A stretch of DNA of 36,799 nt, taken from a virus. Shown here in pieces: positions 4,236 through 29,971 of the stretch (its first letter is position 1; every line of letters starts with the position of its first letter). Made by a program: the position numbers and the translations under genes. The notes under the pieces are model-generated. The model had not been told where the DNA came from. It ran no database searches and saw nothing but the letters and a program-made list of their open reading frames with translations. The DNA is taken from the IMG/VR virus record IMGVR_UViG_3300048691_000223, positions 1-36,799 of that record. One strand, written 5' to 3'.

Positions 4236-5759
4236 ATGCTCTCTATCATCAAACAGCCCAACGCCATTAATTTTTCTAAAAATCCTATTACGTTGGAGGT
4301 ACAAGCGGCTTCGATTTGGCAAATTGAGGCGCGAGGCAAACAGGCAAATACACAGTTGGCTTTTGCTAATCTGTCGGATATTGTTGTTGGTTCGTACATC
4401 AATATCAAATGGAATACTAACGAAATTCAATTTGATGCGGTGGATAGTGTAGATGCCAATAATACAAATAACGAATTTGAAGCATACAGCAATCAGCCGC
4501 TATTCGTACAACTGTTAGCCGATTTTCTAAGCCGTAATTGGGAGGTTCGACATGCCATGAGCATTCAATATACACCTATCTTGGGCAATTTATTGACGTT
4601 TAACATGAGTGGTGAGCCATGCGATAATTTAACTATTACTACCAATATTCCAAATACCACTATTCAAAATCAGCAAGGCGTTATCCCAATGCCACTTGCC
4701 GATTACTTCATTATTGCAAAAGTATTTGTTGGTACATCTACTTTTGAATCCATTGCAGACATCGAAATACAGCCAACGGATAAAACCCCATTTACTGCAA
4801 GTTTATACATTGAAGAATTTTTAAATGATACCTTTTCGCCACAGCCACCAACGGTTGCAACTTGGACAAATATACCGATTCAACAGTTTTTTATTCGTTT
4901 CACAGATAAGCGAAACGGCAAGGGAAGACATATTTTTGAGACACCAAAATACTTTTTACTGAGGGGGGGCATTCAATGGTATAATTGTCCATCTGATTTT
5001 TTAACGCATCCTTTTAGTGATATTATTAACAGTTTACGCCTTTTAACACAACAACCGTCTGTTAAATTATCTGTGCCAACTGCCCAAGAGTATCTACATG
5101 TCTTAGCACATGAAACGATTAACGGCGTTTTTATTGAGACCGAAGCCACATGGCAAAATGGCACTAAAACAACGCATATTCAAAACGTGCCTGCACTTCA
5201 AAGCCGTCATCTATATGTTTTGCCTTGTGGATTCAATGCGCTCAATATCACAAATGGCGCGTTAAAAATTCAGTCATGGACAGTACGCATAAAATGTAAT
5301 TTCGTAGATTTTTTAGGGCAGTCAAGCATTTTTGCGTTTCCACAAAAGCAAACCTACCAAGTGCCTTACACCTGTTCAGAGCAGCCGACTATTTTTATTT
5401 TTGAAAATACGTTGGGTGGCTTCGATACCCTTGTTTGTACTGAGGGGGTGCAAAGGGGCGGTAAAATTGAGCAAGAATTAAGCGTTACAAACGTCAACGG
5501 CGTATGGTCGCCTAATGGAAATGTGAGCATTTTTAGAAAGGAAACAATGCCAATGTTTAAAATTGGAACGGGATGGCTCGACACGGCGCATATACTTTGG
5601 ATACAACAAGAATTTTTAGAATCAGAGAATGTATGGCAACTTATGCCCGATGGTCGCCGATTACGGGTGATTGTAAAAACGGATAATATCCCTCCTATTT
5701 TTCTACGGGAGGATATTCATAGAATTGAATTTGAGTACGCTTACGCTTTTCAAGAATGA
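4236..5759 (+). CDS. Phage tail protein (distal tail or baseplate region)
   Basis: 507 residues, rich in beta-strand-forming residues (I, V, T, N, F), with no signal peptide. The opening (residues 5-24, NAINFSKNPITLEVQA) and the later FIFENTLGGFDTLVCTEGV (about 386-404) match a pattern I associate with Bacteroidota phage tail proteins upstream of a distal tail protein. It follows the tail-completion-like gene with no gap and overlaps the next gene by four bases (ATGA at 5756-5759), so the two are coupled and probably made together. Two copies of the TACTGAGGGG repeat fall inside it (4957, 5438), read as LRG and TEG. A side-fibre role is the main alternative. Confidence 0.6.
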   Translation: MLSIIKQPNAINFSKNPITLEVQAASIWQIEARGKQANTQLAFANLSDIVVGSYINIKWNTNEIQFDAVDSVDANNTNNEFEAYSNQPLFVQLLADFLSRNWEVRHAMSIQYTPILGNLLTFNMSGEPCDNLTITTNIPNTTIQNQQGVIPMPLADYFIIAKVFVGTSTFESIADIEIQPTDKTPFTASLYIEEFLNDTFSPQPPTVATWTNIPIQQFFIRFTDKRNGKGRHIFETPKYFLLRGGIQWYNCPSDFLTHPFSDIINSLRLLTQQPSVKLSVPTAQEYLHVLAHETINGVFIETEATWQNGTKTTHIQNVPALQSRHLYVLPCGFNALNITNGALKIQSWTVRIKCNFVDFLGQSSIFAFPQKQTYQVPYTCSEQPTIFIFENTLGGFDTLVCTEGVQRGGKIEQELSVTNVNGVWSPNGNVSIFRKETMPMFKIGTGWLDTAHILWIQQEFLESENVWQLMPDGRRLRVIVKTDNIPPIFLREDIHRIEFEYAYAFQE

Positions 5760-7504
5760 AGTTAATCGCTAATGGCATACAGTTGGACCTAAATCAAGGC
5801 ACAGCTTTCAATTTTGAATTTACTTCACCTTTGTTCAAAACAAGTGTGGAGGCTGAGGCGTATTCTTACCCGGTTGAATTGCCAAATACAATTCGCAATC
5901 GTCAGTTTTTCAAGTATTTAAACCGTCCTGATAGCAGTGCGAAATTTGTAGAAATACCCTGTATATTACGAGATTCGACGGATATACTGAGGGGGCAAAT
6001 CCATGTCTTAAAAGCCACTGAAAAAGCGTTTTCTATATCCATTTTAAAAAATGCGTGGGATGCAGATATTTTAGAGAAAAGTTTGCGGACAATCAATTTA
6101 GGTGGCATCCGTCCCGTCGGCGACATGTTGACCCATGCAAATTGGACGGTTACAAAGTCGGTTGACCAAGCGGATTATGTCTTTTTCCCTGTTTATAATC
6201 CAAATTTCTACGACCAGTCAGGTAATTTTTTAGGCATTGTTAATAATTGGAGTGTTCTAAATCAAACATTTATAAACAATCCTTTACTCGATGCGAATAG
6301 TAGTGGCAATTCGCCTTATGACCCCAATCGAAATACGCTTGTGCCGTTCCCATATCTTGTTTATGTCTTAAAACAAGTAGCGGCTACTTTTGGCAAAACG
6401 TTATCGGGTTCTTTCGCCCATAATAGCGAGATTAAAACCCTCGTTGTTTACAATACGTTTGCCGTTGATGCTATTACCGAAGACATAAACGGAGGCTATT
6501 TTGCCAATACTTTTAAAACGACTATTGATGTTGCCAATCATGTTCCAGACATCACGATTGCAAGCCTTTTAAATGGTTTGATGCGCCAGTTTAATTTGTC
6601 TATCCAAATCACAGAGAATAATTTAGAAATTGATTTTAAAGAATCATTTTTAAACCAATCTGTCAAATACGATATGTCAAATATTGCCGAACGATACCCC
6701 TCAGTAGAGCCGTTCCGTAGCCAAGCTGCCAATGGGTATAAATTTCAAATGGGTGTAGATACGTCTGACGAATTATGGAAAGAATTGGAAAAAAATGTCC
6801 TTCGCAAAGGCGAAACTTTTAATCCCGTTCCCTATCGGGGGAATTTACCAACCTCTACAGTTGCCAACCAAACGCAATTTGTTATCTACTACAATGCGTG
6901 GTATCGCGCTACATCAGTCGGCACATTCAAGTTAGACTTTGTAAAAACCGACGATGTAGGGTATGCCCCTCAGTATATCACTGGGCAAGGAAAAGAAGTC
7001 ATACAAACGGATATTGGCACTTTGGTTATGCGAAAACACGTGCCTGCCATTAATGAAATTCTCGACATCAAAGACTTTGGACTATTGCCGTCTGCACTGC
7101 AAAAAGGCAATAGTCCAGAGGAACAGTTTGGTATTGGGGCTAAAAACGAGTATGGTTTGCGCTTGCTTTTTTATCGGGGTTTACAGCCCAATTTTGATGC
7201 ACAACTCTACCCTCTTGGTTCAAGCGATATTTACAATACCATGTCGGCAAACAATGGCGCGGTTGGTCAAAAAGGCATGTTGTTAGAAAATATCTATCAG
7301 CAAAACTATAAGTCCTGGCTTGATATAGTGGACAATGCCAAAGCCTTAAATCTTGAATTGGGTCTTGATGCCGCAAAACTATCAGCGTTCGATATGACGG
7401 CTAAATACCGTGTTAACCAACAAAATATTTTGCCCGAAAAAATGTCCGTGTCATGGACAGATAAAGGCGTAAAAAAAGCCCGTATGAGGGCATTAAAATT
7501 CTAA
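5756..7504 (+). CDS. Phage tail protein (distal tail/hub-like)
   Basis: 582 residues. The N-terminal domain carries the pattern typical of Bacteroidota phage tail-tip proteins: FNFEFTSPLF (residues 19-28), then a YSYPVELPNTIRNRQFF segment. The middle and C-terminal parts are beta-rich with a few amphipathic helices (EIDFKESFLNQSVKYDMSNI). Such proteins are thought to form the tail tip or baseplate hub that carries fibres; the exact role is not established for this family. It overlaps the upstream tail gene by four bases. Three TACTGAGGGG repeats sit inside (5985, 6697, 6966), in both orientations and in different reading frames. Confidence 0.65.
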   Translation: MKLIANGIQLDLNQGTAFNFEFTSPLFKTSVEAEAYSYPVELPNTIRNRQFFKYLNRPDSSAKFVEIPCILRDSTDILRGQIHVLKATEKAFSISILKNAWDADILEKSLRTINLGGIRPVGDMLTHANWTVTKSVDQADYVFFPVYNPNFYDQSGNFLGIVNNWSVLNQTFINNPLLDANSSGNSPYDPNRNTLVPFPYLVYVLKQVAATFGKTLSGSFAHNSEIKTLVVYNTFAVDAITEDINGGYFANTFKTTIDVANHVPDITIASLLNGLMRQFNLSIQITENNLEIDFKESFLNQSVKYDMSNIAERYPSVEPFRSQAANGYKFQMGVDTSDELWKELEKNVLRKGETFNPVPYRGNLPTSTVANQTQFVIYYNAWYRATSVGTFKLDFVKTDDVGYAPQYITGQGKEVIQTDIGTLVMRKHVPAINEILDIKDFGLLPSALQKGNSPEEQFGIGAKNEYGLRLLFYRGLQPNFDAQLYPLGSSDIYNTMSANNGAVGQKGMLLENIYQQNYKSWLDIVDNAKALNLELGLDAAKLSAFDMTAKYRVNQQNILPEKMSVSWTDKGVKKARMRALKF

Positions 7505-7509
7505 ATCCC

Positions 7510-7896
7510 ATGACTGATATACCAAGTTTTTACGAATCCTTAAATCGGGAATTGGATTTTATTATGGAGTCCAATTTTGATATTGAGATAAAAAGTTCTC
7601 AAATCAACCAACTCCGACTATTTAAAACAGGCGAGGCAACCAGACGGGCAGACAAATTGATTCAAGACTTATTCAATCATGGTCAAATTATCAATATCTC
7701 AACAAGCCACCGTCCGAATTTATCGGCGGCTCAAAGCCTATTCGACCGTATTCAAGAACGTTTAACGGCTGAATACACCGAGACAACTTTTCTATATGAC
7801 CGTGAGAATCTCTCTATCAAATGGGCAGATTATCCCCCAAAAGTAGCTTTTCATCAGCGTTGTGAGGCACTACTTAAAACATTTTCACATCTGTAA
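7510..7896 (+). CDS. Hypothetical protein after the tail genes
   Basis: 128 residues, soluble, predicted mostly helical with a basic middle (FKTGEATRRADKLIQDLF). No family recognised. It starts five bases after the tail gene stop and probably belongs to the same transcript. After it the spacing widens and the genes become small accessories, so it may be the last gene of the tail operon proper. It could be a tail-tip assembly factor; this is by position only. Confidence 0.5.
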   Translation: MTDIPSFYESLNRELDFIMESNFDIEIKSSQINQLRLFKTGEATRRADKLIQDLFNHGQIINISTSHRPNLSAAQSLFDRIQERLTAEYTETTFLYDRENLSIKWADYPPKVAFHQRCEALLKTFSHL

Positions 7897-10040: not shown

Positions 10041-13000
10041 TTATTTATTAGCAGCCCTACGCCGTATCGTTGATACCAAATCCTGTGTATCTTCTAAATG
10101 TTGAAAGGACAATTCCGCAGGTCGCGTTTTTTCTTCTTTCACGGCTTGAGTCAGTTCATCCATTTTATTGATAAGCATTTGCAAATCAATATTAACCGTT
10201 GGCGAAGCACCCCTCAGTATATCGCGGTTAAAATTGGGTGTCGTAACCGAACCCGAAAATACACCACCATCGGCATAAATCTTCTTGCCCCCTTCATTGA
10301 TAGACGAATTCAATAAAGCATCAATCACCGCTTTATTGTTCCGATAGGTATTATCAGACAAAATCATGTAAGGCTCACCGCCTTCCATTTCGCCAACAAT
10401 GCCTCCTGTTTTTGAATCTACCATCTTAATTCCACCATCCGAGTGGCTTGCGCCTTGCGTGATACCACCTTTGGCAAACTTTTGAGAATTGATAACCGCT
10501 ATTTGAGCTATCGTATTGGCGGCAATCAAACCTAATTGAATGGCTGTTTTAATACCAAAAGTAAAATCGGGAACAACGAAAACGGCAGTTGCTGCCAATG
10601 CGCCGTTCAATATGGCTTGGGCTATTGACATTCTTTTATTGCGCTCAAATGCCTCTTTTTCAATCAGTTCCTTCTTAGCTTCATACTCTTTTTCAAGTTT
10701 ACTTTTTAGCTTCGTATTATTCTTGGCTGCATCCATTTTAGCCTTATATTCTTTGTCTAAGGCTTTCAATGATACATTTTTTTCCCGTTCATAACGCTGA
10801 TTGGCAATCTGAAAAATGGTATTTGCAGCAGTTCTCGCCAATTCAATACCCGCTTCAAGGTATTGGCGTTGGTCTTCTAAGTCTTTTTTACGTAACTCTT
10901 TTTTATAATCAGCATTATGAATTTTATTATCAACTTGAAACCGAGCTAATTTTTCAGCCAATTCATCATCCTTACTTGGTGCTTCGGTTGTACTTTTTAT
11001 TTCCTTAGCCTTGCCGTCTGTATTGACAGTTTTATTGCCAACTCGCTTTTTTTCTACGTCTAAAACATTGATACGTTTAATCTCTGTAACCTCCGATGTG
11101 CGACCAAAAGCCTCCTTTTGGAGAGCGTTCCGTTTTTCCTCTTCATCATTTATTTTTCTAATAACCTCCAATTGTTTTGTAAACAAATCTTGTAATTGCG
11201 CCTGTTTGGTAAGCGGTGTAGCGTCAATAAGTTTATTTAACTGTTGGTATTGTTCGTTCAACAATACCAATGTTTGAGGCAATGACTCTTCGCGCAATTT
11301 AAAAAGTATCGCCTCTGCCTTGGCAAGGGCTTCGGAGGCTACTTTTTGTTCATTTAGAAGTTTTAGCAATTTTTCCTGTTGCGTAATTGGCGTAGCTTCA
11401 AGTTGCTTACCCAATTCGCTGTATTGTTGCCGCAAAAATCCCACTGAACCCGACAGCATTTCTATCTTTTTCTTATGCTCATCTTTGTCTTGAATCGCTT
11501 TCTTATCAACTTGAGATATTTTCTCGGCAGTATTTACCATCTCAATTTGATTGGAAGATATGTATTTATTGAGCGATTCAATCCGTTTTTCAGTATCGCC
11601 CAATTTCTCTTTATAATTCTCCACGTAAGTCATGGCATTGTTAGCCTCTGCCACCATCGCATTGCCTCCCGACTTAATGTAATTCAGCGTTTGCTGCCCA
11701 AATGAAGCCGTCATGTCCGTTTGACCCGATTTTAAATCAATCAAATCCTTTTCAAGTTCGGTTCTTTTTTGGAAAGCAGCCTCGGATTTTGCTCGTTTTT
11801 CAAGGCTTGATACATATTTGTCCGCGGCTTTTGTGGCTTCATCCGTATTGATTTTTTCTAATGTTAAATTACCTAAATACTGATGGGACAACTCGTTTAG
11901 CTTTTTAACAGCTTCCAAACGGTCTTCTTTACTTCTTTTATCATCCCTCGCAACGGTTAAAAGTTGTTCCAATTCAATTTTTTGAGAAGCAATGTTTTTT
12001 GACGCTGTGGCATTCAGGTCATTTATCATTTTTTGAGACATAACCGCCTCACTTACGCTTTGGCTATACATGGCCCACACGCCCACAGCAGCGGTTACGG
12101 CAGAAATGACCAAGCCGATAGGATTTAGTTTTGTTACTAAATTAAAGGCTTGTTGCGCCACCGTTGCCAAGGTTATTTTACCCGTTAAAATATCAACGAT
12201 GTAATTATAGGCAGTCGTAACGGCTGTTAAAACAACTTGTCGTTTAGCCCATAAATCTAAAACTATTGGTATTAATTTAACCGTTCCGTAGTAAGCCGAT
12301 ACGCTTGTAACGGCAATTAATATGGCTTGCGAATAACCCACAATGGTATCCCAATTCGCTTTTACAGACTTCAAAAAGCCTGTAAAAGCCTGTGTGATTT
12401 GCCGCATAATCGGTTCACCCGACTTTGCTATTTGCCCAAACAAACCCTTTGCAGAATCTTTTAAGTTATCAATGTCATTGCCTAAATTGTTAGACATAAC
12501 GGCAGCTTGACGGTATGCCTCATTTGTCCCGGTTACGGCTTTGGTAAGGTTTGTAAAATTATCTACGCTGTTCAAAAGTTTGCTTGCGGCGGGTACGTTT
12601 GCCTCTTCAAAAACAGCTTTTAAAGCCCCCAAATCATTGGCTAATGGCTTCAATTCTTTGAGCCGTTCAGACAATGGTATGGTGGTATCTTTAATTTTTT
12701 CAAGATTTACGTGGTATTTGGCAAGCGATGCCACCGCGTCTTTACTCAACATTTCGGGCGCTTGGATTTTTAACAACATCGTTTTTAATGCCGTTCCCGT
12801 TTCTTCACCTGTCTTAAATGTTTTGCTCAAAGTTTGCACTAACGCCACGGATTCTTCAATCGTAATATTTGCCGTTTTACTCACAGCACCAAACTTCTGA
12901 ATGGCATCCGATGTATCTTCAATTTCTACGGTGCCCTCCTTTGCGCCCGCTGCCATCGCGTTCATATACCGCGTTGTCTCACTTGCATCCGCACTGAATT

Positions 13001-14063
13001 GGTCTAAAACGGTGGACAAAACCTCCACCGACTTAGGCAATTCCATGCCCGATGCTTGGGCAAAAACAATGGCTTCTTTCGTCATCGCTTGCAGAGCCTC
13101 CGCATTGCCCAACAGTTCGGGCTTGGCAGAGCCGACGAGTTTGAAGGCTTTGAGCATATCCGTTGACGTATTGGTAATAACCTGTCCACTACCAATAGTA
13201 ATACTTGTCAATTCATCGGCTCGGCTTGCCAAATCCTTTAACCCATCGCCACTTACATTCGTAATGGCTTCAAGTTCAGAAAGTGCTTTACCGTAGTCAA
13301 CTACGGCGTCAACAGCCGCGTCAATTCCTTGTTTTACAGCATCAAAAGCGTTAACCCCAATAGCAGTATTGAGTATTTGTTTGAAATCTAAAAGGGAATC
13401 TTTTGTCGGTTCAGTTGCCTTATTTATTTCATCCATACGGTCTTTAACCAAGGCTAATTGTTGGCTCGTTTGGATAAATTCTAAGGTATCGGGAGGCAAT
13501 CGCTTCAATTTGGCATCCAATGCCTCTGCCGAATTGGTCAACTGATTAAGACTTGCCGAGCCGATAACAGCCGCATCTTTAAAGATGCTCCCGTCCAGCT
13601 TCATCTCCTTTTTGACTTGTGCCATTTCATCACGCATTTTGGCAAGTCGCGCTTCGACTTTTGCCAAATTCATCATGTTTTCTTCAAACATATCGTCCTT
13701 TTCGCCTGTGCCTTGTGCCTTCGCACGGGCATGACGACGGAGTTTTTCTAACTCCCGAATACTTGCCGATTCTTCGCCAAACTTTTGCCATATAATTTGA
13801 ATAGACGCATCCGATGTCACCTTACTATCTTTCAGTAAGTCGGAATTGTTCTTTTTCAAGGCATCGTACAACTCATTTGACTTTTGAATGATAGCTCTAT
13901 ACCGTTCATCTTTTGTCAATTCCTCCGAGCCTTTTCCAGCTTTAACAAATTCCTCTGCTAATTTTTGCGCCTCTTTTTGGAGGGTGAGCAATTCTTTTTG
14001 AGCATCAGCCGCTTTGACGGTGATGGACAGTTGTATTTCGTCTTTATTGAGCGTTGATGCCAT
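10041..14063 (-). CDS. Tail tape measure protein (TP901 type)
   Basis: 1340 residues. It sets tail length and fills the tail tube before DNA ejection. Visible from N to C: coiled-coil rich residues 1-220; a TP901-type core domain near 240-480 (GIDAAVDAVVDYGKALSELE, then AAGAKEGTVEIEDTSDAIQ); hydrophobic stretches near 571-608 and 644-667; long coiled coils to about 1140; a hydrophobic segment near 1150-1190; and a Gly-rich tail AKGGITQGASHSDGGIKMVD with VGEMEGGEPYMILS, the typical end of Bacteroidota tape measure proteins. At about 0.15 nm per residue, 1340 residues suggest a tail near 200 nm. It is on the minus strand while all other recognised virion genes are on plus, and has its own promoter-like box at 14096-14103. 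Confidence 0.92.
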   Translation of the reverse strand: MASTLNKDEIQLSITVKAADAQKELLTLQKEAQKLAEEFVKAGKGSEELTKDERYRAIIQKSNELYDALKKNNSDLLKDSKVTSDASIQIIWQKFGEESASIRELEKLRRHARAKAQGTGEKDDMFEENMMNLAKVEARLAKMRDEMAQVKKEMKLDGSIFKDAAVIGSASLNQLTNSAEALDAKLKRLPPDTLEFIQTSQQLALVKDRMDEINKATEPTKDSLLDFKQILNTAIGVNAFDAVKQGIDAAVDAVVDYGKALSELEAITNVSGDGLKDLASRADELTSITIGSGQVITNTSTDMLKAFKLVGSAKPELLGNAEALQAMTKEAIVFAQASGMELPKSVEVLSTVLDQFSADASETTRYMNAMAAGAKEGTVEIEDTSDAIQKFGAVSKTANITIEESVALVQTLSKTFKTGEETGTALKTMLLKIQAPEMLSKDAVASLAKYHVNLEKIKDTTIPLSERLKELKPLANDLGALKAVFEEANVPAASKLLNSVDNFTNLTKAVTGTNEAYRQAAVMSNNLGNDIDNLKDSAKGLFGQIAKSGEPIMRQITQAFTGFLKSVKANWDTIVGYSQAILIAVTSVSAYYGTVKLIPIVLDLWAKRQVVLTAVTTAYNYIVDILTGKITLATVAQQAFNLVTKLNPIGLVISAVTAAVGVWAMYSQSVSEAVMSQKMINDLNATASKNIASQKIELEQLLTVARDDKRSKEDRLEAVKKLNELSHQYLGNLTLEKINTDEATKAADKYVSSLEKRAKSEAAFQKRTELEKDLIDLKSGQTDMTASFGQQTLNYIKSGGNAMVAEANNAMTYVENYKEKLGDTEKRIESLNKYISSNQIEMVNTAEKISQVDKKAIQDKDEHKKKIEMLSGSVGFLRQQYSELGKQLEATPITQQEKLLKLLNEQKVASEALAKAEAILFKLREESLPQTLVLLNEQYQQLNKLIDATPLTKQAQLQDLFTKQLEVIRKINDEEEKRNALQKEAFGRTSEVTEIKRINVLDVEKKRVGNKTVNTDGKAKEIKSTTEAPSKDDELAEKLARFQVDNKIHNADYKKELRKKDLEDQRQYLEAGIELARTAANTIFQIANQRYEREKNVSLKALDKEYKAKMDAAKNNTKLKSKLEKEYEAKKELIEKEAFERNKRMSIAQAILNGALAATAVFVVPDFTFGIKTAIQLGLIAANTIAQIAVINSQKFAKGGITQGASHSDGGIKMVDSKTGGIVGEMEGGEPYMILSDNTYRNNKAVIDALLNSSINEGGKKIYADGGVFSGSVTTPNFNRDILRGASPTVNIDLQMLINKMDELTQAVKEEKTRPAELSFQHLEDTQDLVSTIRRRAANK

Positions 14064-14095
14064 GTTCTAAAAAAAATAAAATGTGGAAAATAGGA

Positions 14096-14103
14096 CAAAG
14101 CTA
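14096..14103 (-). promoter_or_regulatory. Promoter-like -7 box for the tape measure gene
   Basis: Read on the minus strand, TAGCTTTG fits the Bacteroidota -7 consensus TAnnTTTG and lies 32 bases before the tape measure ATG. No clear -33 TTTG was seen at the usual distance, so strength is uncertain. Confidence 0.5.
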
Positions 14104-14132
14104 TCGGACACCCCTCAGTATAAAAACGAAAA

Positions 14133-14164
14133 AAATGCCCCACTGAATGAACAGAGGGGCATTT
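14133..14164. terminator. Terminator after the integrase gene
   Basis: AAATGCCCC (14133-14141) pairs with GGGGCATTT (14156-14164), with an inner CTG/CAG pairing. A-run on the left becomes a T-run for minus-strand transcripts. It separates integrase (ends 14171) from the tape measure promoter. Confidence 0.8.
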
Positions 14165-14170
14165 GTATAT

Positions 14171-15397
14171 TTATAAAATACGCTTTTGATATTGCCTAAT
14201 TTCGGGTGTAATCATCGAATCATGGTAATAAATAAGTGTTATTTTCGGGTCGGAATGCCGTGCATGAAGCGACGTTTTAAAGATAGATACTGAGGGGTCA
14301 TTGGCAAAATCCGTAATACCTGTATCCTTCCAAGAATAGAAAGAAATTCCCGTCGTATCACCCAAAATACCCTCTGCTTTCAACTTATCTAAAACGGCTC
14401 TATGCCGATTATTAAACCAATTTTCAGCAACAGGTTTAATCGCATTTGGTACAAACTTATCACCAAATACCAAATAGTTTGTTGGATAAGTGATAAAATC
14501 ATCCCCATCAAGAAGATATTTTAAAGCAATAGAAGGAATAGTTAAAACAGCCGCTTTACCATTTTTAGTAATATCGGCTGATAATCGAATTGTACCTGAC
14601 TGACAATCAAAGTCCTTAAACCGAAGCCTTGCCAATTCCGAAGGGCGAATCAGCATATAATATTGAAGGACAATTGCCCTAAATAACCATTTATCATTAT
14701 CGTTACAATATTGAGCAATGTCTTTACGCTCCTTTTCGGTCAAATTTCGCCGTAATTTTGGCGACTTCTTTTTGTATTTAATATCCTTAAAAGGATTTTT
14801 ATCCGTGTATTCACGCCGTATCAATTCTCCCCAAATAATATTCATACACAGCAAATTATTATTATAAGTGGTGTTAGAATGACCTTTCATAACAATTGTA
14901 TCCATAAAAGCAATTGCCTCCCGTTTTGACATTTCAGATACCGAAAGCGTCTCAATATTTTTAGTAATCATGTACTTACTAAAACTATTGAGCATATACC
15001 TATAAGATTTTTTAGAATTTTTATTGTCGGTCTGACATTTAAGGTCAATAATAGACTGAAACGCCACTTTAAGCGGCGTTCTAAAAAGCGGATAAGGGTC
15101 AGAAGCAAATTTAATGCGTCCCCGTCCATGCTTTTTAATATCTGCAATAATCACATTCGCAGGGATACCTTTACCCAACATCTCGTTAAGATATTCGATA
15201 ATTTCATCGGCACTATTTTTACGTTCTTTTTTGGACTCAATGCGATTGATGTCAAATGTAGGGCGGTATCGTATCATTTTCTCTGATGCTCCCTGCCAAA
15301 ATTCGATATGCCATCTATCAGCTTTGATAAGTTTAGCCTCTTTGTAGGCTGTGTAGGACGCCAAAACGTTCGTTTTAGGCAAATTTTTTTTATCCAT
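14171..15397 (-). CDS. int: Tyrosine recombinase / phage integrase
   Basis: 408 residues. It would integrate and excise the phage genome at att sites. A SAM-like core-binding domain lies near residues 125-210. The catalytic domain shows IRPSELARLRFKDFD (Arg I near 247), a strand with KNGKAAVL (Lys near 279), a box II written YSWKDTG (near 352-358) where the classic form is HxLRHT, then ARHSDPKITLIYYH with the likely nucleophile Tyr near 387-388. Box II thus has S, K, D in place of H, R, H. Related substitutions (SxKHTG) are common in Bacteroidota integrases, though D at the last place is less usual to my knowledge. The gene is flanked by a long inverted repeat (15465-15536) and a putative operator (15564-15578) upstream, and a terminator downstream. 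Confidence 0.9.
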   Translation of the reverse strand: MDKKNLPKTNVLASYTAYKEAKLIKADRWHIEFWQGASEKMIRYRPTFDINRIESKKERKNSADEIIEYLNEMLGKGIPANVIIADIKKHGRGRIKFASDPYPLFRTPLKVAFQSIIDLKCQTDNKNSKKSYRYMLNSFSKYMITKNIETLSVSEMSKREAIAFMDTIVMKGHSNTTYNNNLLCMNIIWGELIRREYTDKNPFKDIKYKKKSPKLRRNLTEKERKDIAQYCNDNDKWLFRAIVLQYYMLIRPSELARLRFKDFDCQSGTIRLSADITKNGKAAVLTIPSIALKYLLDGDDFITYPTNYLVFGDKFVPNAIKPVAENWFNNRHRAVLDKLKAEGILGDTTGISFYSWKDTGITDFANDPSVSIFKTSLHARHSDPKITLIYYHDSMITPEIRQYQKRIL

Positions 15398-15464
15398 TTT
15401 CTTGCAATTTCTTGGCGCTGTTTTGACGCACTTTAGAAACGAGAAAATAGTAAATGATTAAAAA

Positions 15465-15536
15465 TCAATTAGTTATGTGTAGGTTTGTGGAGGATAACGG
15501 AGCAAATCCCCAAACCAAAATCACATAACTAATTGA
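15465..15536. repeat. Long nested inverted repeat upstream of the integrase
   Basis: Outer arms TCAATTAGTTATGTG (15465-15479) and its exact complement (15522-15536) are perfect over 15 bp. Inner arms GGTTTGTGGA (15482-15491) and TCCCCAAACC (15507-15516) pair with one mismatch. Placement next to int suggests an att region with integrase arm sites, or a structured leader of the int mRNA. No T-run follows, so a terminator is unlikely. Confidence 0.75.
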
Positions 15537-15563
15537 CTATCAATACCTTACTTTTCCTCTAAA

Positions 15564-15578
15564 TTGTGAAAGTCACAA
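15564..15578. promoter_or_regulatory. Putative repressor operator in front of the integrase
   Basis: TTGTGAAAGTCACAA is a palindrome around a 3-nt centre and contains TGA-N3-TCA, the same core as the four-unit array at 16469-16516. It lies in the 259-bp gap upstream of int. Shared control of int and early genes by one repressor is inferred. Confidence 0.6.
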
Positions 15579-15656
15579 CAAAAAGCGCACTTTTGACAAA
15601 CTATTTTACTGTCTGAATAATCGTACAATTGATATTATTCACACATATTTGAATAA

Positions 15657-15995
15657 TTATCGCCCTTTTTCTATCAGGCTTTGAAGTCTATCTTCTTTTT
15701 CTTTGAGCCGTTCGTCTTTTTCAGATAAGAGGCGTTCGTACAAATCTTTTAAATCTGTATTGCCGTCTCTCGGCTTTGGGTGGAGGATGCTGCTTGGCTC
15801 GGTATCAAAATAGGTACGGTCTATTTCTAATGCCTTACAGATGTCTCGCAATAGTCCTTCGTTGAGTTTTTCTTTCTTGAAATTATTGGGATAATTGTTC
15901 TTGTCTTTGCCCATCAGGTCGCAAAAGCTGCCTTTGCTCATGCCTTTGATGATTAAGGCAATTTCTAATAACTTGCCGTGATTACGATGCGTCAT
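15657..15995 (-). CDS. HTH transcriptional regulator with C-terminal coiled coil (second of a pair)
   Basis: 112 residues. The N-terminal 60 fold like a lambda-repressor HTH in outline: ALIIKGMSKGSFCDLMGKDK, NNYPNNFKKEKLNEGLLRDI, CKALEIDRTYF. The C-terminus DLKDLYERLLSEKDERLKEK is a coiled coil probably used for dimers. It starts directly after the stop of the neighbouring regulator (TAG then ATG), and shares with it the LYERLL.EKD segment, so the two look like duplicated paralogues. It has no protease-type domain for RecA-triggered cleavage. Confidence 0.75.
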   Translation of the reverse strand: MTHRNHGKLLEIALIIKGMSKGSFCDLMGKDKNNYPNNFKKEKLNEGLLRDICKALEIDRTYFDTEPSSILHPKPRDGNTDLKDLYERLLSEKDERLKEKEDRLQSLIEKGR

Positions 15996-16361
15996 CTACT
16001 GTTGTTTGAGTAACTCCTTTAAAAAATTTATTTGCGCGTCTTTTTCGGCTAACAACCGCTCATACAGTGCCTTCATTTCTTCCATCGCAGCATGGCTGCC
16101 CATGCTCTGGCTAACCGATGCCCCATCGTTGCCGTTCGCTTGCTGGCTCTGGTGAACAGAAGGGTGGCGAAATTCATCTAAAAAACTTTTGTCAATTTCT
16201 AATTCCTCCGCGATTTTATCTAAGAGCGAACCATCGACAATGCTCTGCCTTCCCACGATGTAAAGATTGTTACGGGACATTTTTAGCCTTTCTGCAAAAT
16301 CTTCCATCTTAATTCCATGCTGTTTTAAAATTGGTTTTAATTTCTGTTGTAAAGTATTCAT
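15996..16361 (-). CDS. HTH transcriptional regulator, probable lysogeny repressor
   Basis: 121 residues. An XRE-like HTH covers residues 5-60 (LKPILKQHGIKMEDFAERLK, MSRNNLYIVGRQSIVDGSLL, DKIAEELEID). A flexible Q/S/G-rich linker (about 65-88) leads to a coiled coil (MEEMKALYERLLAEKDAQIN). It is transcribed away from the early genes, with the operator array in the divergent gap, the classical place for a CI-like repressor. No cleavable LexA/CI peptidase domain is present, so induction would need another route, perhaps the paralogue next to it. Which of the two binds which site cannot be told from sequence. Confidence 0.8.
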   Translation of the reverse strand: MNTLQQKLKPILKQHGIKMEDFAERLKMSRNNLYIVGRQSIVDGSLLDKIAEELEIDKSFLDEFRHPSVHQSQQANGNDGASVSQSMGSHAAMEEMKALYERLLAEKDAQINFLKELLKQQ

Positions 16362-16536: not shown

Positions 16537-16803
16537 ATGTCAATGCAGAGTATTTCGCAGGTAAAAAAAATGCCGTTGCAAAAACGGTTGTTGTTGAAGA
16601 AACAACTTTGGGGTCACACGGAGGATGTGGCAGTTATCGCAGGGGTGAGTTACAACACGGCTTGCATGACCATTTCACGGTTTATCGAAACGGGCGAATG
16701 GCGCAATATGAATGTGCTCGCGGCGGTCAATGCGACTTTAGACCGCATCAACACCCCCTCAGTAGAGGAGCTTGTTTTATCTCAAAAATTGGAGGATTCA
16801 TGA
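16537..16803 (+). CDS. Small HTH-like early protein
   Basis: 88 residues, first gene of the early transcript, as cro is in lambdoid phages. The middle reads as a helix-turn-helix: HTEDVAVIAGVSYNTACMTI (residues 27-46), followed by SRFIETGEWRNMNVLAAVNA. The layout resembles small Bacteroidota HTH proteins ending in a helix after an N-x-x-V-L-A-A motif. It likely binds operators in the gap just upstream, but this is inference. The end overlaps the next gene by four bases (ATGA). One TACTGAGGGG repeat (minus sense) encodes TPSV near its C-terminus. Confidence 0.6.
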   Translation: MSMQSISQVKKMPLQKRLLLKKQLWGHTEDVAVIAGVSYNTACMTISRFIETGEWRNMNVLAAVNATLDRINTPSVEELVLSQKLEDS

Positions 16804-18706: not shown

Positions 18707-21601
18707 ATGACTAATAAATTAAAAGCATCCTATCAGTTTGAGAAAAATAAGCCGAAAGGCGAATGTCCTGTTTGTGGCAAACCCCGTGTTTTTAGGTATT
18801 ACGAAGGCTTGCCACGTGAGTTTGGAATCTGTGAGCGCTTGAATAATTGTGGACATCACAACAAACCAGACGGGTCTATTAAGCCTTCGGAAGTGCCAAA
18901 GGTTGAGCCGAAACCACAAGTGTATGTAGTAGAGGAAACTAAAGTTCAAATGTGGTTAGATAACCTTACATCGAACTTTCATACGTACTGTTTGGGGCTT
19001 GGTATTTCGATGGAACACCTCCAAAAGTGGCGCATTGGAACAGACAGAGGACAAACGGTTTTTGTCCATCAAAACGCAAAAAACGAGTTTTCGACGGCTA
19101 AATTCATCGCTTATACTGAGGGGGGTAGCCGAAGCAAAGAACGCGATGCGTATTACATGAAATCCCCAAAAGAGGGGCGTTATGTAGTCAGCTTGTTTGG
19201 CGAACACCTGCTAAGAACGGATTTTCCCATTATAAAGAATATGGGAATTGACGATATAGAACAGGAATTTACAAGCGACTATTTGCGGCGTGTCTGTATT
19301 GTTGAAAGCGAAAAAACGGCAGTTATTGCCTCCTTTTTTTATCCCGATTATGATTGGGTGGCTTGCGGTTCTAATGCAGGGCTGACCGATGAAAAGACGG
19401 GAAGTTTGGTGGGAAGGGAGGTTTACAACCTTCGGGATGCGGATATTGCAGGGCGCTCTACATGCTCTTTGAAGAAATTAGAAGACTGTAAAACACCGCT
19501 TAAATGTTCGACTTGCAAAATTCCACATATTGAAAAAAGATTGATTCAATGGAATATCAAATACACAGGGCTTGATTTGTTTCCAGAGGATGAAAGCGGG
19601 TATGACCTTGCAGATGCGATTAAAGACGGGGTTTTTCCTGACATCGCGCAAGCTGAAACGGAGGCTATTACAAAAGCATTTACAGAGAGTTTACCGAATA
19701 GACAGACAGATACAGCAAAAGAAACAACGGCAAGTACACAAATTGATGAAGATATAGACGATGAACTAAACTACTTTGAAAAACAAGACAGACGATATTA
19801 CCTACGCTCACTTTTACCAAGAGGTGTAGATGTGGACAATGTTATTGAATATGGGTTCTACGAGCATAAACAATGCTATTACATGGCAAAAAAAGAGGAC
19901 AGTTACGAAAAAGTGTCCAATTTTACAATGAAAGTGCGCTTTTTGATTGTCGGTGTCAATCCTAAACGCATTGTGGAAATTACGAATGTGCATAAAAAAA
20001 CGGTGGTTATTGATTTTTCAATTGAAGATTTGATTTCGACCGCAAAATTTAAAGCACGAATTGAATCCGTTGGCAATTTTCTTTTTGAAGGCAAAGACAG
20101 CGATTTGAGCCGAATCAAAAACAAGTTGTACAACTTGGAAAAAGCATCGAAAGAAATTTCAACGCTTGGCGCACATAAAGACGGGTTTTGGGCTTGGGCA
20201 AATGGGGTGTATGATGGGGCAGCATTTACAGAGATTGACGAACATGGTATGGTAGAATGGAAGGGGGAACATTATTTTATTCCCGTATTCGGCTCAACAA
20301 CGAGCGTGGACGATGACGATTTGAGAAATTATAGAAAGTTCCAATACAAGCAAAATGAAGCCATGAACTTTAATAAATGGGCGAAACAATTTATTAAAGT
20401 TTATGGCAATAACGGGCGGGTGGCTATTGCTTTTTACTTGGTTTCGATATTTCGGGACATCATTCAAGCGAAAGTAAATTTTACGCCGATGCTGTTTTTG
20501 TTCGGGCAGCGCGGCTCTGGAAAGTCAGAGATGGTCAAATCGTTGATGTGCCTGTTTGGTGAAGCCCAAGACCCACTTATGTTGGGGGGCGCATCAACAG
20601 TTGTGGCTTTCATGCGAAAGCTCTCACAGTTCAGAAATACCATTGTTTGGTTTGATGAATATAAAAACGACATCGGTGAGAAGAAAATTGAATCACTGAA
20701 AAACATTTGGGACGGAGTTGGTTACGAGCGTGGTGTTAAAGATAATTCTAACAAAACGACTACGAGCCAAATTAGAAGCGCCGCAATTCTATCAGGTCAA
20801 GAGATGCCGAACGCTGAACCCGCTTTATTTAGCCGTGTATCGCTTTTGGAGTTTCAACAAACACAGTATTCACAGACTGAAATTAAGGAATACAACATAT
20901 TGAAACGGATGCAAAACGATGGTTTGACCGATGTGACGCATGAGGTTTTGAATTTCAAAGAAACAATTACCACCGAATTTAAAGACAAATTCGATGAAGT
21001 AGCCGAAATGTTTAGAACAGTTTTCACGGGGACAGATGTGATTGAAAGGCAAATAAATAACTTTTCGGTTATGGTCACAATGGTTTGGCTTTTGGAAAAA
21101 CAATTGAATATCCCCTTTTCGCATGTAGATATGATTAAGATTTCAGAGAAGCTGATACCACAACAATCGGCGATGATGCGGACATCAAACGAGGTGCAAC
21201 AGTTTTGGGAAATGGTCGCTTTTCTGTGGCAAAACCACATGATTACTGAGGGGGTGGACATTCAATTTAAGGATATTGTTTCACAGGAAATTAAGGGCAA
21301 ATTGGTTTATACGGATGGTTTGGTTATGATTCGATTGGCAACAATGTTCCCTTTGTACCGAGATTATTCACGCAGACAAGGACAAAAGGCATTGGACAAA
21401 GGCACTTTAGTCCGTTATTTGAAGGCTGACGGCGCGTTTTCAGAAGCGGAGAGCGACAAATCACGTAGATTTGAAAAGCTGCCTAATCCTACAAATGCGT
21501 TCGTTTTCCTACAACCTAAGATGATAAAACTACACAGCATGGATTTAACCGATTTTAGACCAAAGGTTAAGAATGATACTCAAAACGTTGATAATCAATA
21601 A
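18707..21601 (+). CDS. Primase-helicase (zinc finger, TOPRIM, AAA/SF3-like ATPase)
   Basis: 964 residues. N-terminal zinc finger with Cys20, Cys23, Cys42 and Cys48 (CPVCGKPRVF then GICERLNNCGHH), a form common in Bacteroidota phage primases (DUF6371-like). A TOPRIM-like part around 194-225 begins VCIVESEKTAVIASF. A second Cys cluster (CSTC near 272) follows. The C-terminal ATPase has a Walker A LFGQRGSGKS (near 597-606) and a Walker B NTIVWFDEYKN (near 644-654), with an arginine-finger-type SRVSLLEF after it. Together these make RNA primers and unwind DNA at the phage fork. The gene is preceded by a perfect hairpin and followed by the origin-like gap. It contains two TACTGAGGGG repeats (19114, 21244). 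Confidence 0.88.
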   Translation: MTNKLKASYQFEKNKPKGECPVCGKPRVFRYYEGLPREFGICERLNNCGHHNKPDGSIKPSEVPKVEPKPQVYVVEETKVQMWLDNLTSNFHTYCLGLGISMEHLQKWRIGTDRGQTVFVHQNAKNEFSTAKFIAYTEGGSRSKERDAYYMKSPKEGRYVVSLFGEHLLRTDFPIIKNMGIDDIEQEFTSDYLRRVCIVESEKTAVIASFFYPDYDWVACGSNAGLTDEKTGSLVGREVYNLRDADIAGRSTCSLKKLEDCKTPLKCSTCKIPHIEKRLIQWNIKYTGLDLFPEDESGYDLADAIKDGVFPDIAQAETEAITKAFTESLPNRQTDTAKETTASTQIDEDIDDELNYFEKQDRRYYLRSLLPRGVDVDNVIEYGFYEHKQCYYMAKKEDSYEKVSNFTMKVRFLIVGVNPKRIVEITNVHKKTVVIDFSIEDLISTAKFKARIESVGNFLFEGKDSDLSRIKNKLYNLEKASKEISTLGAHKDGFWAWANGVYDGAAFTEIDEHGMVEWKGEHYFIPVFGSTTSVDDDDLRNYRKFQYKQNEAMNFNKWAKQFIKVYGNNGRVAIAFYLVSIFRDIIQAKVNFTPMLFLFGQRGSGKSEMVKSLMCLFGEAQDPLMLGGASTVVAFMRKLSQFRNTIVWFDEYKNDIGEKKIESLKNIWDGVGYERGVKDNSNKTTTSQIRSAAILSGQEMPNAEPALFSRVSLLEFQQTQYSQTEIKEYNILKRMQNDGLTDVTHEVLNFKETITTEFKDKFDEVAEMFRTVFTGTDVIERQINNFSVMVTMVWLLEKQLNIPFSHVDMIKISEKLIPQQSAMMRTSNEVQQFWEMVAFLWQNHMITEGVDIQFKDIVSQEIKGKLVYTDGLVMIRLATMFPLYRDYSRRQGQKALDKGTLVRYLKADGAFSEAESDKSRRFEKLPNPTNAFVFLQPKMIKLHSMDLTDFRPKVKNDTQNVDNQ

Positions 21602-24572: not shown

Positions 24573-25226
24573 ATGTGTTATCAAACACGCCCTATTTTGT
24601 TTAATACGCCGATGGTTAAACAAATTTTGTTGGGCAATAAGACCCAAACACGGCGTACAAAAGGGCTTGAATCAGTCAGTAAAATTGATGAAAGGTGGTA
24701 TTTTGATAGGCAGAATAACCATAAAACACCACCTTTTACATTCTTTGATAAGCCCTATTTGGTCCCGTATGGTAAGGAAAAAAAGGTGGAATGTCCTTAC
24801 GGGAAGGTTGGAGATGTGCTTTGGGTACGTGAGACTTTTCAAAATAAGGATTACTCACCTACTGTTTACAAAGCTGGTTTTGATGAGGATTTACTGAGGG
24901 GGTTTGAGGAATTTAAAATGAAGTGGCAACCATCGCTTTTTATGCCTAAATCTGAATGCCGTTTGTGGTTAAAAATTGTGAATATTCGCGTCCAAAAGCT
25001 ATGTACTATCACGGATACTGATGCACTGGCAGAGGGTGTTGAAATTGAGTTTGATGAAGATGGTTTGTACAAAGATTATTTCTCAAATGGTGTTACTTTT
25101 TCGCCTAAAATTTCTTTCAAATCGCTTTGGAAGTCCATTAATGGGGAGTTTTCATGGGTTTTAGACCCGTTTGTTTGGGTGATTGAATTTGAACGGTGCG
25201 AAATGCCCGAATTTTTCTTAAAATAA
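24573..25226 (+). CDS. ASCH/PUA-like domain protein
   Basis: 217 residues. The pattern fits phage proteins of ASCH-like type: ILFNTPMVKQILLGNKTQTR (residues 8-27), CPYGKVGDVLWVRETF (near 74-89), KWQPSLFMPKSECRLWLKIV (near 116-135), TDTDALAEGVE (near 147-157), FKSLWKSINGEFSW then DPFVWVIEFER at the end. The ASCH fold is related to PUA and is thought to bind RNA or modified nucleotides; in phages its target is unknown. One TACTGAGGGG repeat encodes LRG within it. A strong intrinsic terminator follows. Confidence 0.75.
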   Translation: MCYQTRPILFNTPMVKQILLGNKTQTRRTKGLESVSKIDERWYFDRQNNHKTPPFTFFDKPYLVPYGKEKKVECPYGKVGDVLWVRETFQNKDYSPTVYKAGFDEDLLRGFEEFKMKWQPSLFMPKSECRLWLKIVNIRVQKLCTITDTDALAEGVEIEFDEDGLYKDYFSNGVTFSPKISFKSLWKSINGEFSWVLDPFVWVIEFERCEMPEFFLK

Positions 25227-27254: not shown

Positions 27255-28190
27255 ATGACTGACTCAATTAATATTGAAGAGCTTGGAGTCAAACTTGGGG
27301 ACCATTGCCGCGAGAATAAGGTAGAATTATTCCGTCGCGCCTTATTGACCGAAGATTATGTTAATGAATATGACGTGTTGGCTGATGTCAATGATGAAGT
27401 ACCATTGCCAAGCATGAAAATCAATGACATAATCAAAGCGGGTAGTACCACATTTACGCCAACTGATGATGCTTTTGAAATAGATGCCCGCATGTTGAAG
27501 GTGAAGCATTTGGCGACACACCTCCGAATTGATCCTTACAAATATTTTCAATCATGGATGGCACATTTGCTGTCCTTTAAAATGAACCCCGAAGAATTCC
27601 CATTAGAAGCCTTCATCATGACGGCAGTCGTGGACAAAATCAAAGAGGAATTTCGTTTCAAACACTTGTATCGTGGCACGACACTCATGCCAGGTTATTT
27701 GAAAATCATTGAGAATGAAATTGCATTGGGTGAATTGTCGGCAGAAAATGAGAACCTTGTAGATACGGGTGTTATCGGACAAACGAATGTGATTGACAAA
27801 TTTGAAATGATTTACGACAATTTGAACTCTGTCTTAAAGATGAAACCAACGGTTATGCGTGTTAATCCCGATTTGTTCCAAAAATATCGACGCGCTTATC
27901 GTGGTGAATTTGGGGGCAATACGAACTACGGTGGCATGGCCAAAGACATGTCAGAAACGCTTGACGGCTCAATGTGTAAAATCGTTCCCGAAATCGGTTT
28001 AGTAGGCAGCAACCGGGTTATTGTGACCGAAGCCAAAAACTATAAAATTGGCGTCAAGAACTTACAAGATATGGCAACTCCACGGATATTGGTTCAACAC
28101 TATACCATTGACATTATGGTTGATTACCGCATAGGTGTTGAGTTTGGCTATGTCAAAGAGAAATGTTTGGTCGTGAATAACCAAGCCTAA
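27255..28190 (+). CDS. Major capsid protein
   Basis: 311 residues, the usual length of HK97-fold capsid proteins. It opens with a helical arm (SINIEELGVKLGDHCRENKV), passes a long spine-like helix region (KVKHLATHLRIDPYKYFQSW), and ends with beta-rich segments around IVPEIGLVGSNRVIVTEAKN and RILVQHYTIDIMVDYRIGVE. The VTEAKNYKIGV pattern with a following DYRIGVEFGY is what one expects near the C-terminus of such proteins. It follows the protease/scaffold gene by 34 bases and is followed by a terminator, so capsid mRNA can be made in excess. The assignment rests mostly on order and size. Confidence 0.8.
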   Translation: MTDSINIEELGVKLGDHCRENKVELFRRALLTEDYVNEYDVLADVNDEVPLPSMKINDIIKAGSTTFTPTDDAFEIDARMLKVKHLATHLRIDPYKYFQSWMAHLLSFKMNPEEFPLEAFIMTAVVDKIKEEFRFKHLYRGTTLMPGYLKIIENEIALGELSAENENLVDTGVIGQTNVIDKFEMIYDNLNSVLKMKPTVMRVNPDLFQKYRRAYRGEFGGNTNYGGMAKDMSETLDGSMCKIVPEIGLVGSNRVIVTEAKNYKIGVKNLQDMATPRILVQHYTIDIMVDYRIGVEFGYVKEKCLVVNNQA

Positions 28191-28270: not shown

Positions 28271-28801
28271 ATGTGTAATTTGACAGGTACATTGCCAAAG
28301 TCTTGTGGCACGAATCCACAGGGCGTTACGGAAATTATCCTTTTAAATCGACTCGATGTGCTAAGTGTTGGCACGATGAACGCCGATACACAAACCATTA
28401 CTGTTGCTATTTCTCTTGTTGCTACTAAAAAAGGTTATGCGATTCAGTTTACTGAGGAGACGGCAGAGGCGCACGACAGTTTGGCAGGTGATGTAGATGC
28501 GAATCACATCATGCAACAACTTTTGTTCTCGGTGGCGGGTCAAAAATCGGTTTTGGTGGCACGTGTTCAACAAATGGTTGGCGGTCGTTTCTTGGCTTTG
28601 GTTCGGTTTGCAAATGGCGATGTCCGTTTATTTGGAACATTGGCAGCGCCGCTTCGGTTGAAAAAAGCAGAGGGCAAATCAGGTAAATACGGCTCGAACG
28701 ATATGCGGGGCTATGCCTTTGAATTGAGTTGCTCGGCGGCTATTTTTCCACCTTACTATCCATTCGCTTACGACGATATTGCGGACAGAAATTTTATTTA
28801 A
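28271..28801 (+). CDS. Putative tail tube/major tail protein, zero-frame product
   Basis: 176 residues. The pattern (N-terminal GTNPQGVTEIILLNRLDVLS, a central helix HIMQQLLFSVAG, strands LALVRFANGDVRLFGTL, then GYAFELSC) suits a small beta-barrel tail tube subunit, and the size and the place after the capsid gene agree; a head decoration protein is the alternative. The last codons AGA AAT TTT ATT TAA contain the heptamer A_AAT_TTT (28789-28795), so that a -1 slip would replace the last residue and stop with a further 74 residues (see 28795-29019). Stop use is expected to give the main form. Confidence 0.65.
   Translation: MCNLTGTLPKSCGTNPQGVTEIILLNRLDVLSVGTMNADTQTITVAISLVATKKGYAIQFTEETAEAHDSLAGDVDANHIMQQLLFSVAGQKSVLVARVQQMVGGRFLALVRFANGDVRLFGTLAAPLRLKKAEGKSGKYGSNDMRGYAFELSCSAAIFPPYYPFAYDDIADRNFI
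28789..28795 (+). promoter_or_regulatory. Predicted -1 frameshift site 1 (A_AAT_TTT)
   Basis: Slippery heptamer of the X_XXY_YYZ form in the zero frame, two codons before the stop. A stem AACCCCTG (28800-28807) with CAGGGGTT (28874-28881), 8 bp and perfect, begins 4 nt downstream. The same design is found at 29831-29837. Confidence 0.7.
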
Positions 28802-29019
28802 CCCCTGCGACCAATATAGATTACGGTGGTGAGTTCTCTGACGAATTCTCTGACGAATTTGATACGGGAGGCACAGGGGTTACGCTCAATACCACAACAA
28901 AGAATTCGACGACCAACACGACGGTTACGCTCGGTGGAACATCGTTAGAAGAGGATATTGAGTTTTACAAACGTTGGCTGTTGAACAAAGTCAACAATGA
29001 GGTTTTACTTTCTTATTAA
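28795..29019 (+). CDS. -1 frame extension of the tail-tube-like protein
   Basis: After the slip the frame reads YLTPATNIDYGGEFSDEFSD, then EFDTGGTG, a Thr/Asn-rich part (TTTKNSTTNTTVTLGG), and a final helix (LEEDIEFYKRWLLNKVNNEV), 74 residues in all, giving a protein of 249. It has no ATG near its beginning; the first in-frame one is far inside, and the only upstream start is a TTG at 28729 within the tail gene. A frameshift is therefore the best explanation, and the parallel in the next gene supports it. An Ig-like or fibre-binding extension on a minority of subunits is known for other phages, but here the fold is not identifiable. Confidence 0.65.
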   Translation, partial: YLTPATNIDYGGEFSDEFSDEFDTGGTGVTLNTTTKNSTTNTTVTLGGTSLEEDIEFYKRWLLNKVNNEVLLSY

Positions 29020-29057
29020 TTTCTTTTTATTTTTAATCTTAAAAATTTTATTCACAC

Positions 29058-29843
29058 ATGAGTGCATTATTTCAAGCATTTTATTTTGTTATTGAAGCGG
29101 CAATGTTGCGTTTGTGGGCATCAGTCAAAGCATGGAGCTTTTCTAAAAGTCAATCGGATGCCCGTTATTGGCAAAAAGCAGAAGAGGTTGTTGCAACAAC
29201 GCTTTCAGCCCCTGCACGTTTGGCAATTGTCAATGAAGTAGAGGCAGATGCAGACCTCAAAATTAAATCGTTGGGTGATTCGGTTTTTACATCACTTGGG
29301 GGCAAATTAGGCATCGGTTCAACGGCTGCAAATGCTGACCAGTTAGGTGGTATAACGCTTACAGCGTTAATGAATCAAATCAGTGGTCAAATCACGACAG
29401 CAACTAATCAGGTTTTACAAACGGCTAAAAATGCGTTTGCACAAGGCGCAAAAGACTTTGGTTTGGTCATTATCGAAAGCTCAAACAACGTTGAAACGAT
29501 GACGTTTGACGCGTTCTTTACGGCTGCTTTTGGTCCAATCATAGTAGGCGCATGGAACGATGGTCCTTATCATGCTCAATTATTGTTGAAAGCTGTTAAT
29601 GTTAGCCGTGAGTTGGAGGTTACAATGCCAAACGGCTCTACCCAAAAGTTGAACAACTTGGACAGCTTGGTTTTTAACGTAACAGATAATGCCATTACAA
29701 GCGTGACTTTTGTGGATGACCCAATTGTGGAACTTATTGCCAATAACAAAACTGAAATTGCAACGGAGCGTGTGCGTATTGACACCATTGTTGATGGTTT
29801 TACAGGCATCATTGCACAAATGAATGCCCTAAATTTTACGTAA
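29058..29843 (+). CDS. Fibre-like virion protein, zero-frame product
   Basis: 261 residues. It begins with a helical, aromatic N-terminus (FQAFYFVIEAAMLRLWASVK) that may anchor it, then KSQSDARYWQKAEEVVATTL. A middle stretch GIGSTAANADQLGGITLTAL follows the A-D-x-L-G-G linker pattern typical of phage tail fibres, and helical repeats follow (ISGQITTATNQVLQTAKNAF). The C-terminal part is beta-rich. The final codons CTA AAT TTT ACG TAA include A_AAT_TTT (29831-29837), and a -1 slip would extend the protein by 19 residues (see 29837-29896). Fibre or head-fibre protein is the best reading. Confidence 0.6.
   Translation: MSALFQAFYFVIEAAMLRLWASVKAWSFSKSQSDARYWQKAEEVVATTLSAPARLAIVNEVEADADLKIKSLGDSVFTSLGGKLGIGSTAANADQLGGITLTALMNQISGQITTATNQVLQTAKNAFAQGAKDFGLVIIESSNNVETMTFDAFFTAAFGPIIVGAWNDGPYHAQLLLKAVNVSRELEVTMPNGSTQKLNNLDSLVFNVTDNAITSVTFVDDPIVELIANNKTEIATERVRIDTIVDGFTGIIAQMNALNFT
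29831..29837 (+). promoter_or_regulatory. Predicted -1 frameshift site 2 (A_AAT_TTT)
   Basis: Same heptamer as site 1, two codons before the TAA at 29841-29843. Stem GCCCTG (29844-29849) with CAGGGC (29886-29891) starts 6 nt downstream. Bases around both sites agree as AAATTTTA-nn-TAA-n-CCCTGCG. Confidence 0.7.
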
Positions 29844-29896
29844 GCCCTGCGGAGTTTGATAACCAGTTTGGTGATGAATTTCAGACAGGGCAGTAG
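29837..29896 (+). CDS. -1 frame extension of the fibre-like protein
   Basis: After the slip the frame reads YVSPAEFDNQFGDEFQTGQ and stops at 29894-29896; the full protein would have 279 residues. The join NF-YVSPA matches the join NF-YLTPA of site 1, and EFDNQFGDEFQTG matches GEFSDEFSDEFDTGG. Likeness across the join itself, with one part coded in the zero frame and one in the -1 frame, argues that the fused product is the one under selection. No start codon of its own is present. Confidence 0.65.
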   Translation, partial: YVSPAEFDNQFGDEFQTGQ

Positions 29897-29913
29897 GGCT
29901 TATTTCGTAAATA

Positions 29914-29953
29914 AAAAAGTAGCCAAAATTTGTAAGGCTTTTGGCTACTTTTT
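29914..29953. terminator. Strong bidirectional terminator
   Basis: AAAAAGTAGCCAAAA (29914-29928) and TTTTGGCTACTTTTT (29939-29953) are perfect 15-bp complements with a 10-nt loop. It ends 18 bases before the next ATG, so the next gene needs read-through or a promoter hidden in this gap. Confidence 0.9.
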
Positions 29954-29971
29954 TTAACACATTCTTTGCGT

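Follow-up and report, generated by a model that had tools for sequence, protein, structure and literature searches.

Most descriptions of C-terminal extensions that frameshifting adds to head and tail proteins concern phages of Firmicutes and enterobacteria, and such extensions are thought to come from the chance landing of modules. The Listeria phages PSA, A118 and A500 use frameshifting in both the coat and the major tail genes (PMC5009743), with +1 signals on proline codons with a pseudoknot or stop in PSA, and with a −1 shift in the coat gene and a +1 shift in the tail gene in A118 and A500. For Lactobacillus phage A2, the titles cited in two papers (PMC5009743, PMC10885494) point to −1 frameshifting in the head gene and in the gene of a second major virion protein. 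In SPP1, the tail tube protein gp17.1 and its frameshift-extended form occur at 3:1, the extension being an FN3/Ig-like domain and the short form a complete protein (PMC8718954), and the 936 phages use a programmed frameshift behind the tail tube protein to append TpeX, a carbohydrate-binding module that binds the host (PMC6669499). Frameshifting at lambda G/GT, which lies just before the tape-measure gene, yields gpGT, an assembly chaperone that leaves the particle (PMC5009743), so that lambda, invoked in an earlier note on the DNA studied here, is not a precedent for virion proteins.

The window (the whole 36.8-kb stretch analysed) is a virus record that carries integrase, tape measure, portal, capsid and terminase genes, and the hosts of this virus are Bacteroidota bacteria. 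Two of its neighbouring genes, gene 1 and gene 2, end in the same slippery heptamer and would give C-terminally extended minor forms, resembling PSA, A118 and A500 in that one phage would extend two virion genes, but differing from them in that both shifts would be −1, at the same heptamer, and the extensions are alike. Because two-gene frameshifting is known from these Listeria phages, the novelty that the earlier note saw in paired use has to be narrowed: the element that appears new, and of which we found no description, is the same −1 cassette with matching tags on two adjacent genes. Gene 1, as a probable major tail tube protein with a frameshifted extension and a complete short form, would be the counterpart of SPP1 gp17.1, whereas its 74-aa extension has no Pfam or PHROGs match and, being short, acidic and T/N-rich, does not qualify as an Ig or FN3 domain. 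The likeness to TpeX would lie in a frameshift after the tail tube protein, although the TpeX extension is much longer and concerns one gene only, and unlike lambda G/GT, gene 1 follows the capsid gene, with the tape measure at 10041–14063 on the opposite strand.

The isolates nearest to the window's phage are Polaribacter phage Leef_1, a siphovirus (PMC8776804), and Microcystis phage Mea-Yong924-1, to whose annotated major capsid protein the window's capsid protein is 36–38% identical over its full length. Single-sequence scans of viral contigs with gene 1, the capsid, gene 2 and the terminase returned no relatives, and no close relative of the phage was found. Leef_1 (Helgolandviridae) and Bacteroidota prophages have a gene order similar to that of the window (protease, capsid, gene-1 family protein, small gene, terminase), and their gene-1 family protein has the same fold as gene 1, but they are without gene 2, the heptamer at the stop and the extension, all three of which the window has. 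The tape measure and integrase genes (10041–16361) are on the minus strand of the window and its other structural genes on the plus strand, unlike Leef_1, whose tape measure shares its strand with the remaining genes. Mea-Yong924-1, named as a 'Microcystis' phage, is similar to prophages of Sphingobacteriaceae MAGs (the loci compared being L001, L007 and L008), and its true host may therefore be a Bacteroidota bacterium living with Microcystis.

Slippery heptamers and downstream stems

As the earlier note had stated, A_AAT_TTT occurs in frame near the TAA of both genes (Table 1). Its AAT and TTT are the third- and second-last sense codons, the note's 'fourth-last' having counted the stop, and they are followed by ATT TAA at site 1 and by ACG TAA at site 2. 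The agreement of bases around the two sites was likewise borne out, with 18 of 21 bases identical in a common 21-mer that starts at the heptamer (AAATTTTAnnTAAnCCCTGCG). At both 28789 and 29831 we thus found an in-frame X_XXY_YYZ heptamer within the overlap of two frames. The main genes of the window hold 76 in-frame XXXYYYZ heptamers in 11,254 codons, and only three of the 76 lie at most five codons from a stop, two of these three being sites 1 and 2. A scan of viral contigs for the exact cassette gave no match. In Escherichia coli, when a strong stimulator is present, shifting exceeds background at 61 of 64 X_XXZ_ZZN heptamers, and A_AAU_UUU is not among the three exceptions (PMC4066793).

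Table 1. Coordinates of features at and around the two candidate frameshift sites, numbered by position in the window
Feature	Coordinates	Strand	Basis or remark
Major capsid protein gene (context)	27255..28190	+	identity to annotated Mea-Yong924-1 major capsid protein
Gene 1 zero-frame product, 176 aa, probable major tail (tube) protein	28271..28801	+	profile, AF2, BFVD
Slippery heptamer A_AAT_TTT, site 1	28789..28795	+	in frame, two sense codons before TAA
Zero-frame stop TAA, site 1	28799..28801	+	sequence
−1 frame extension of gene 1, 74 codons + stop	28795..29019	+	coding score
Putative stimulatory hairpin, site 1	28802..28879	+	fold z + stem background
Gene 2 zero-frame product, 261 aa, without known relatives	29058..29843	+	coding score 0.31
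Slippery heptamer A_AAT_TTT, site 2	29831..29837	+	in frame, two sense codons before TAA
Zero-frame stop TAA, site 2	29841..29843	+	sequence
−1 frame extension of gene 2, 19 codons + stop	29837..29896	+	coding score + likeness to extension 1
Putative stimulatory hairpin, site 2	29844..29891	+	fold z + stem test
Inverted repeat + T run 3' of gene 2, likely terminator	29913..29954	+	perfect 16-nt arms

The GC stems noted just downstream of the two heptamers proved real: each has a 6-bp stem with five or six G-C pairs that starts exactly 6 nt after the heptamer. Stems of this kind (at least 6 bp, at least five G-C pairs, start 4–8 nt downstream) are found at 0.34% of window positions. At site 1 the arms are AACCCCTG (28800–28807) and CAGGGGTT (28874–28881); the 6-bp core, CCCCUG/CAGGGG, encloses 66 nt and the stem becomes one of 8 bp, AACCCCUG/CAGGGGUU (28800 to 28881), if two A-U pairs are counted. 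At site 2, GCCCTG (29844–29849) and CAGGGC (29886–29891) enclose 36 nt, and the predictions include an alternative 11-bp stem, GUAAGCCCUGC, whose 3' bases reach about 29903. Compared with shuffles, the predicted folds gave z of −2.66 to −2.9 at site 1 and, depending on the segment, −2.3 to −3.1 at site 2, scores that place both sites only in the lowest 4–8% of all windows. Six-base stems are short for a strong stimulator, which counts against frameshifting. An SD-like stimulator of the published types was not seen upstream of either site, and none would be expected because Bacteroidota rarely rely on Shine-Dalgarno pairing. One study that searched bacteria for frameshift hairpins set a start 4–10 nt after the motif and a length of 17–140 nt (PMC4066793), and the hairpins at both sites fall within these ranges.

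Elsewhere in the window, an AAAAAAA heptamer (7471–7477) lies nine codons before the stop of gene 5756–7504, and from it the −1 frame is open into ORF 7510–7896, a possible third frameshift; this ORF has its own ATG directly after that stop. Another candidate site, at 16563, was rejected, as the ORF that follows it starts with an ATG of its own.

Coding signal of the −1 frame extensions and alternative readings

Few stretches of known genes in the window are open in the −1 frame for at least 74 codons (3 of 6,861 codon positions). The codon-usage score computed for extension 1 was 0.33, against a maximum of 0.199 among 584 off-frame windows of 74 codons, and that for extension 2 was 0.28, against a 95% off-frame limit of 0.157; with an in-frame mean of 0.24, both −1 stretches match known genes. 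Aligned in the −1 frame, the two extensions gave a BLOSUM62 score of 51, which 1 of 20,000 shuffles reached, whereas the same DNA read in the 0 and +1 frames scored 19 and 16. The −1 peptides are as the earlier note gave them, and their likeness does run across the frame join: with the residues before the join added the score rose to 63, reached by none of 20,000 shuffles. Both tails start with Y[LV][TS]PA ... EF..[EQ]F.DEF.TG, and within the matched residues there are five silent differences (TAT/TAC, TTC/TTT, GAC/GAT, ACG/ACA and GGA/GGG, for Y, F, D, T and G). As plain DNA the two extensions are only modestly alike: among 19,793 random pairs from the window, 69 score as well. The silent codon differences and the frame-specific scores therefore suggest that the likeness has been held at the protein level in the −1 frame, as it would be in translated sequence. 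The likeness that the earlier note described is mainly one of protein, with no copied block of DNA. By its coding scores and its frame-specific peptide likeness, the new frame appears to be coding at both sites.

With this coding potential and likeness, the heptamer and a well-placed hairpin at both sites, we regard programmed −1 frameshifting in both genes, as the earlier note had proposed, as the best explanation and a likely one; it would give minority C-terminally extended forms. If instead a base had been lost from the A3T4 run at both sites by sequence or assembly error, the real genes would be single in-frame ORFs; the two sites do consist of identical homopolymer runs, and a single added base would bring either extension into frame. 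Yet intact genes elsewhere contain AAATTTT without a reading error, as at 20476 in the primase gene and at 24622 in the phrog_874 gene, the long genes of 1340, 964 and 507 aa show no breaks, the relatives of gene 1 stop at the same point, and a heptamer and hairpin at identical spacing would have to be coincidence. Since AAATTTT is correct in other genes, and the hairpins and a complete short product fit frameshifting, we regard such an error as quite unlikely. An unlikely reading, too, is that of real mutations which left extensions once translated, in frame or by frameshifting, as untranslated relics, with gene 2 carrying a copy of the gene-1 cassette that has since decayed. This would agree with the unequal lengths of the extensions (74 and 19 codons), with relatives that are without extensions and with a plausible duplication of a 3' end, but both extensions have kept a gene-like codon usage, both are free of stops and silent changes make up many of the differences at matched residues, so that selection would have acted in the −1 frame until recently.

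Two further readings are very improbable. Transcriptional slippage on the A3T4 run, giving −1 frame mRNAs, would result in the same proteins, but none of the tool results speaks for it, the hairpins would be superfluous, and three A and four T make a run far shorter than those known to cause slippage. Nor are the −1 frames likely to be small genes that start independently: the first of them does have a TTG upstream, at 28729, that opens it, but neither extension has an ATG, as the earlier note had observed, the second is without any usable start, and the likeness begins exactly at the slip site.

Scanning with both extensions returned one identical match, of 12–13 residues containing EFSDEFSDEFDT, in an unrelated tail-region protein (L070:258-905); its match to extension 1 has silent codon differences and was judged to be convergent or a common loop motif. 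Many relatives of gene 1 end in TPA or PA, and the −1 peptide FYLTPA was considered as a restored C-terminal end of the family; because the extension adds no profile score, this stays a hint. Extension 1 also contains a 12-bp in-frame tandem duplication (28834–28857), of a length divisible by three, which yields the repeated peptide EFSDEFSD.

Gene products and a proposed tagging mechanism

The family to which gene 1 belongs has about 50 proteins, encoded after the capsid gene in Leef_1-like phages, and in the window, too, gene 1 sits after the capsid gene. A profile computed from 47 distinct homologues, built without gene 1, matched it with an E value of 1.7e-20 against the window ORFs. The same place downstream of the capsid gene is taken by homologues in L001, L003–L005, L007 and L008, in prophages of many bacteria and in those viral contigs whose terminases are related. 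The AF2 model of gene 1, a confident one (pLDDT 89), resembles a protein of Leef_1 (TM 0.82) and one labelled as a major tail protein (TM 0.69), both in BFVD. Matches to solved structures were weak (TM at most 0.47) but almost all to tail-tube-type or tail-associated proteins; the profile itself matched no solved structure. Gene 1 is hence, by position and modelled fold, a probable virion protein, and we infer from the model matches that it is probably a major tail protein. For gene 2, no match was found in PHROGs, Pfam, viral contigs, phage records or 390 genomes of one bacterial order, and a single-sequence structure prediction was useless (pLDDT 37). The earlier note's 'two virion genes' thus holds as probable for gene 1, and is only a guess for gene 2 because the latter has no relatives.

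Of some 58 homologues of gene 1 that were scanned, nearly all, many of them 171–197 aa long, stop near the position of its zero-frame stop, and the short product is therefore complete in itself, with the extension a module added on. None of these homologues, which are distant, has a slippery heptamer in the last 15 codons before its stop, a point that tells against frameshifting. Two members of the family, L014:2575-3702 (375 aa) and the reverse complement of L045 2060-2932 (290 aa), carry a long in-frame C-terminal addition after the same point, comparable to the frameshifted module but fused, and the family thus tolerates modules there.

We infer that the majority of ribosomes would terminate at TAA to give the 176-aa and 261-aa proteins, and that a minority, held by the GC hairpin starting 6 nt downstream with AAT TTT in place, would slip together to AAA TTT, back one base, and enter the −1 frame. 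The slipped ribosomes would lengthen the probable tail-tube protein by 74 aa and the gene-2 protein by 19 aa and, since the two tails begin alike, the minority forms of two neighbouring proteins would bear the same kind of C-terminal tag. The tag is probably exposed on the virion and, by analogy with SPP1 and the 936 phages, the extended tail protein would decorate the tail; a common docking or binding function of both tags is a guess. More tentatively, it is possible that a recoding cassette comprising slippery site, stop, hairpin and tag start was duplicated between adjacent virion genes, so that one signal sets the tagged share of two structural proteins with the same C-terminal docking or binding tag. 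If true, the matched pair in a Bacteroidota phage would clearly exemplify how a recoding signal can spread between genes together with its module, and would offer a ready test of how well A_AAU_UUU works where ribosomes seldom depend on Shine-Dalgarno pairing. In annotations made by gene callers, 74 residues of one protein and 19 of the other would be missing.

Some phages, among them those of L092:583-1053, L085:3054-3524 and L081:3050-3514, encode a second, smaller protein upstream of the capsid gene. It matches the gene-1 profile with an E value of about 1e-8, which suggests a paralogue sharing the gene-1 fold in phages of this type.
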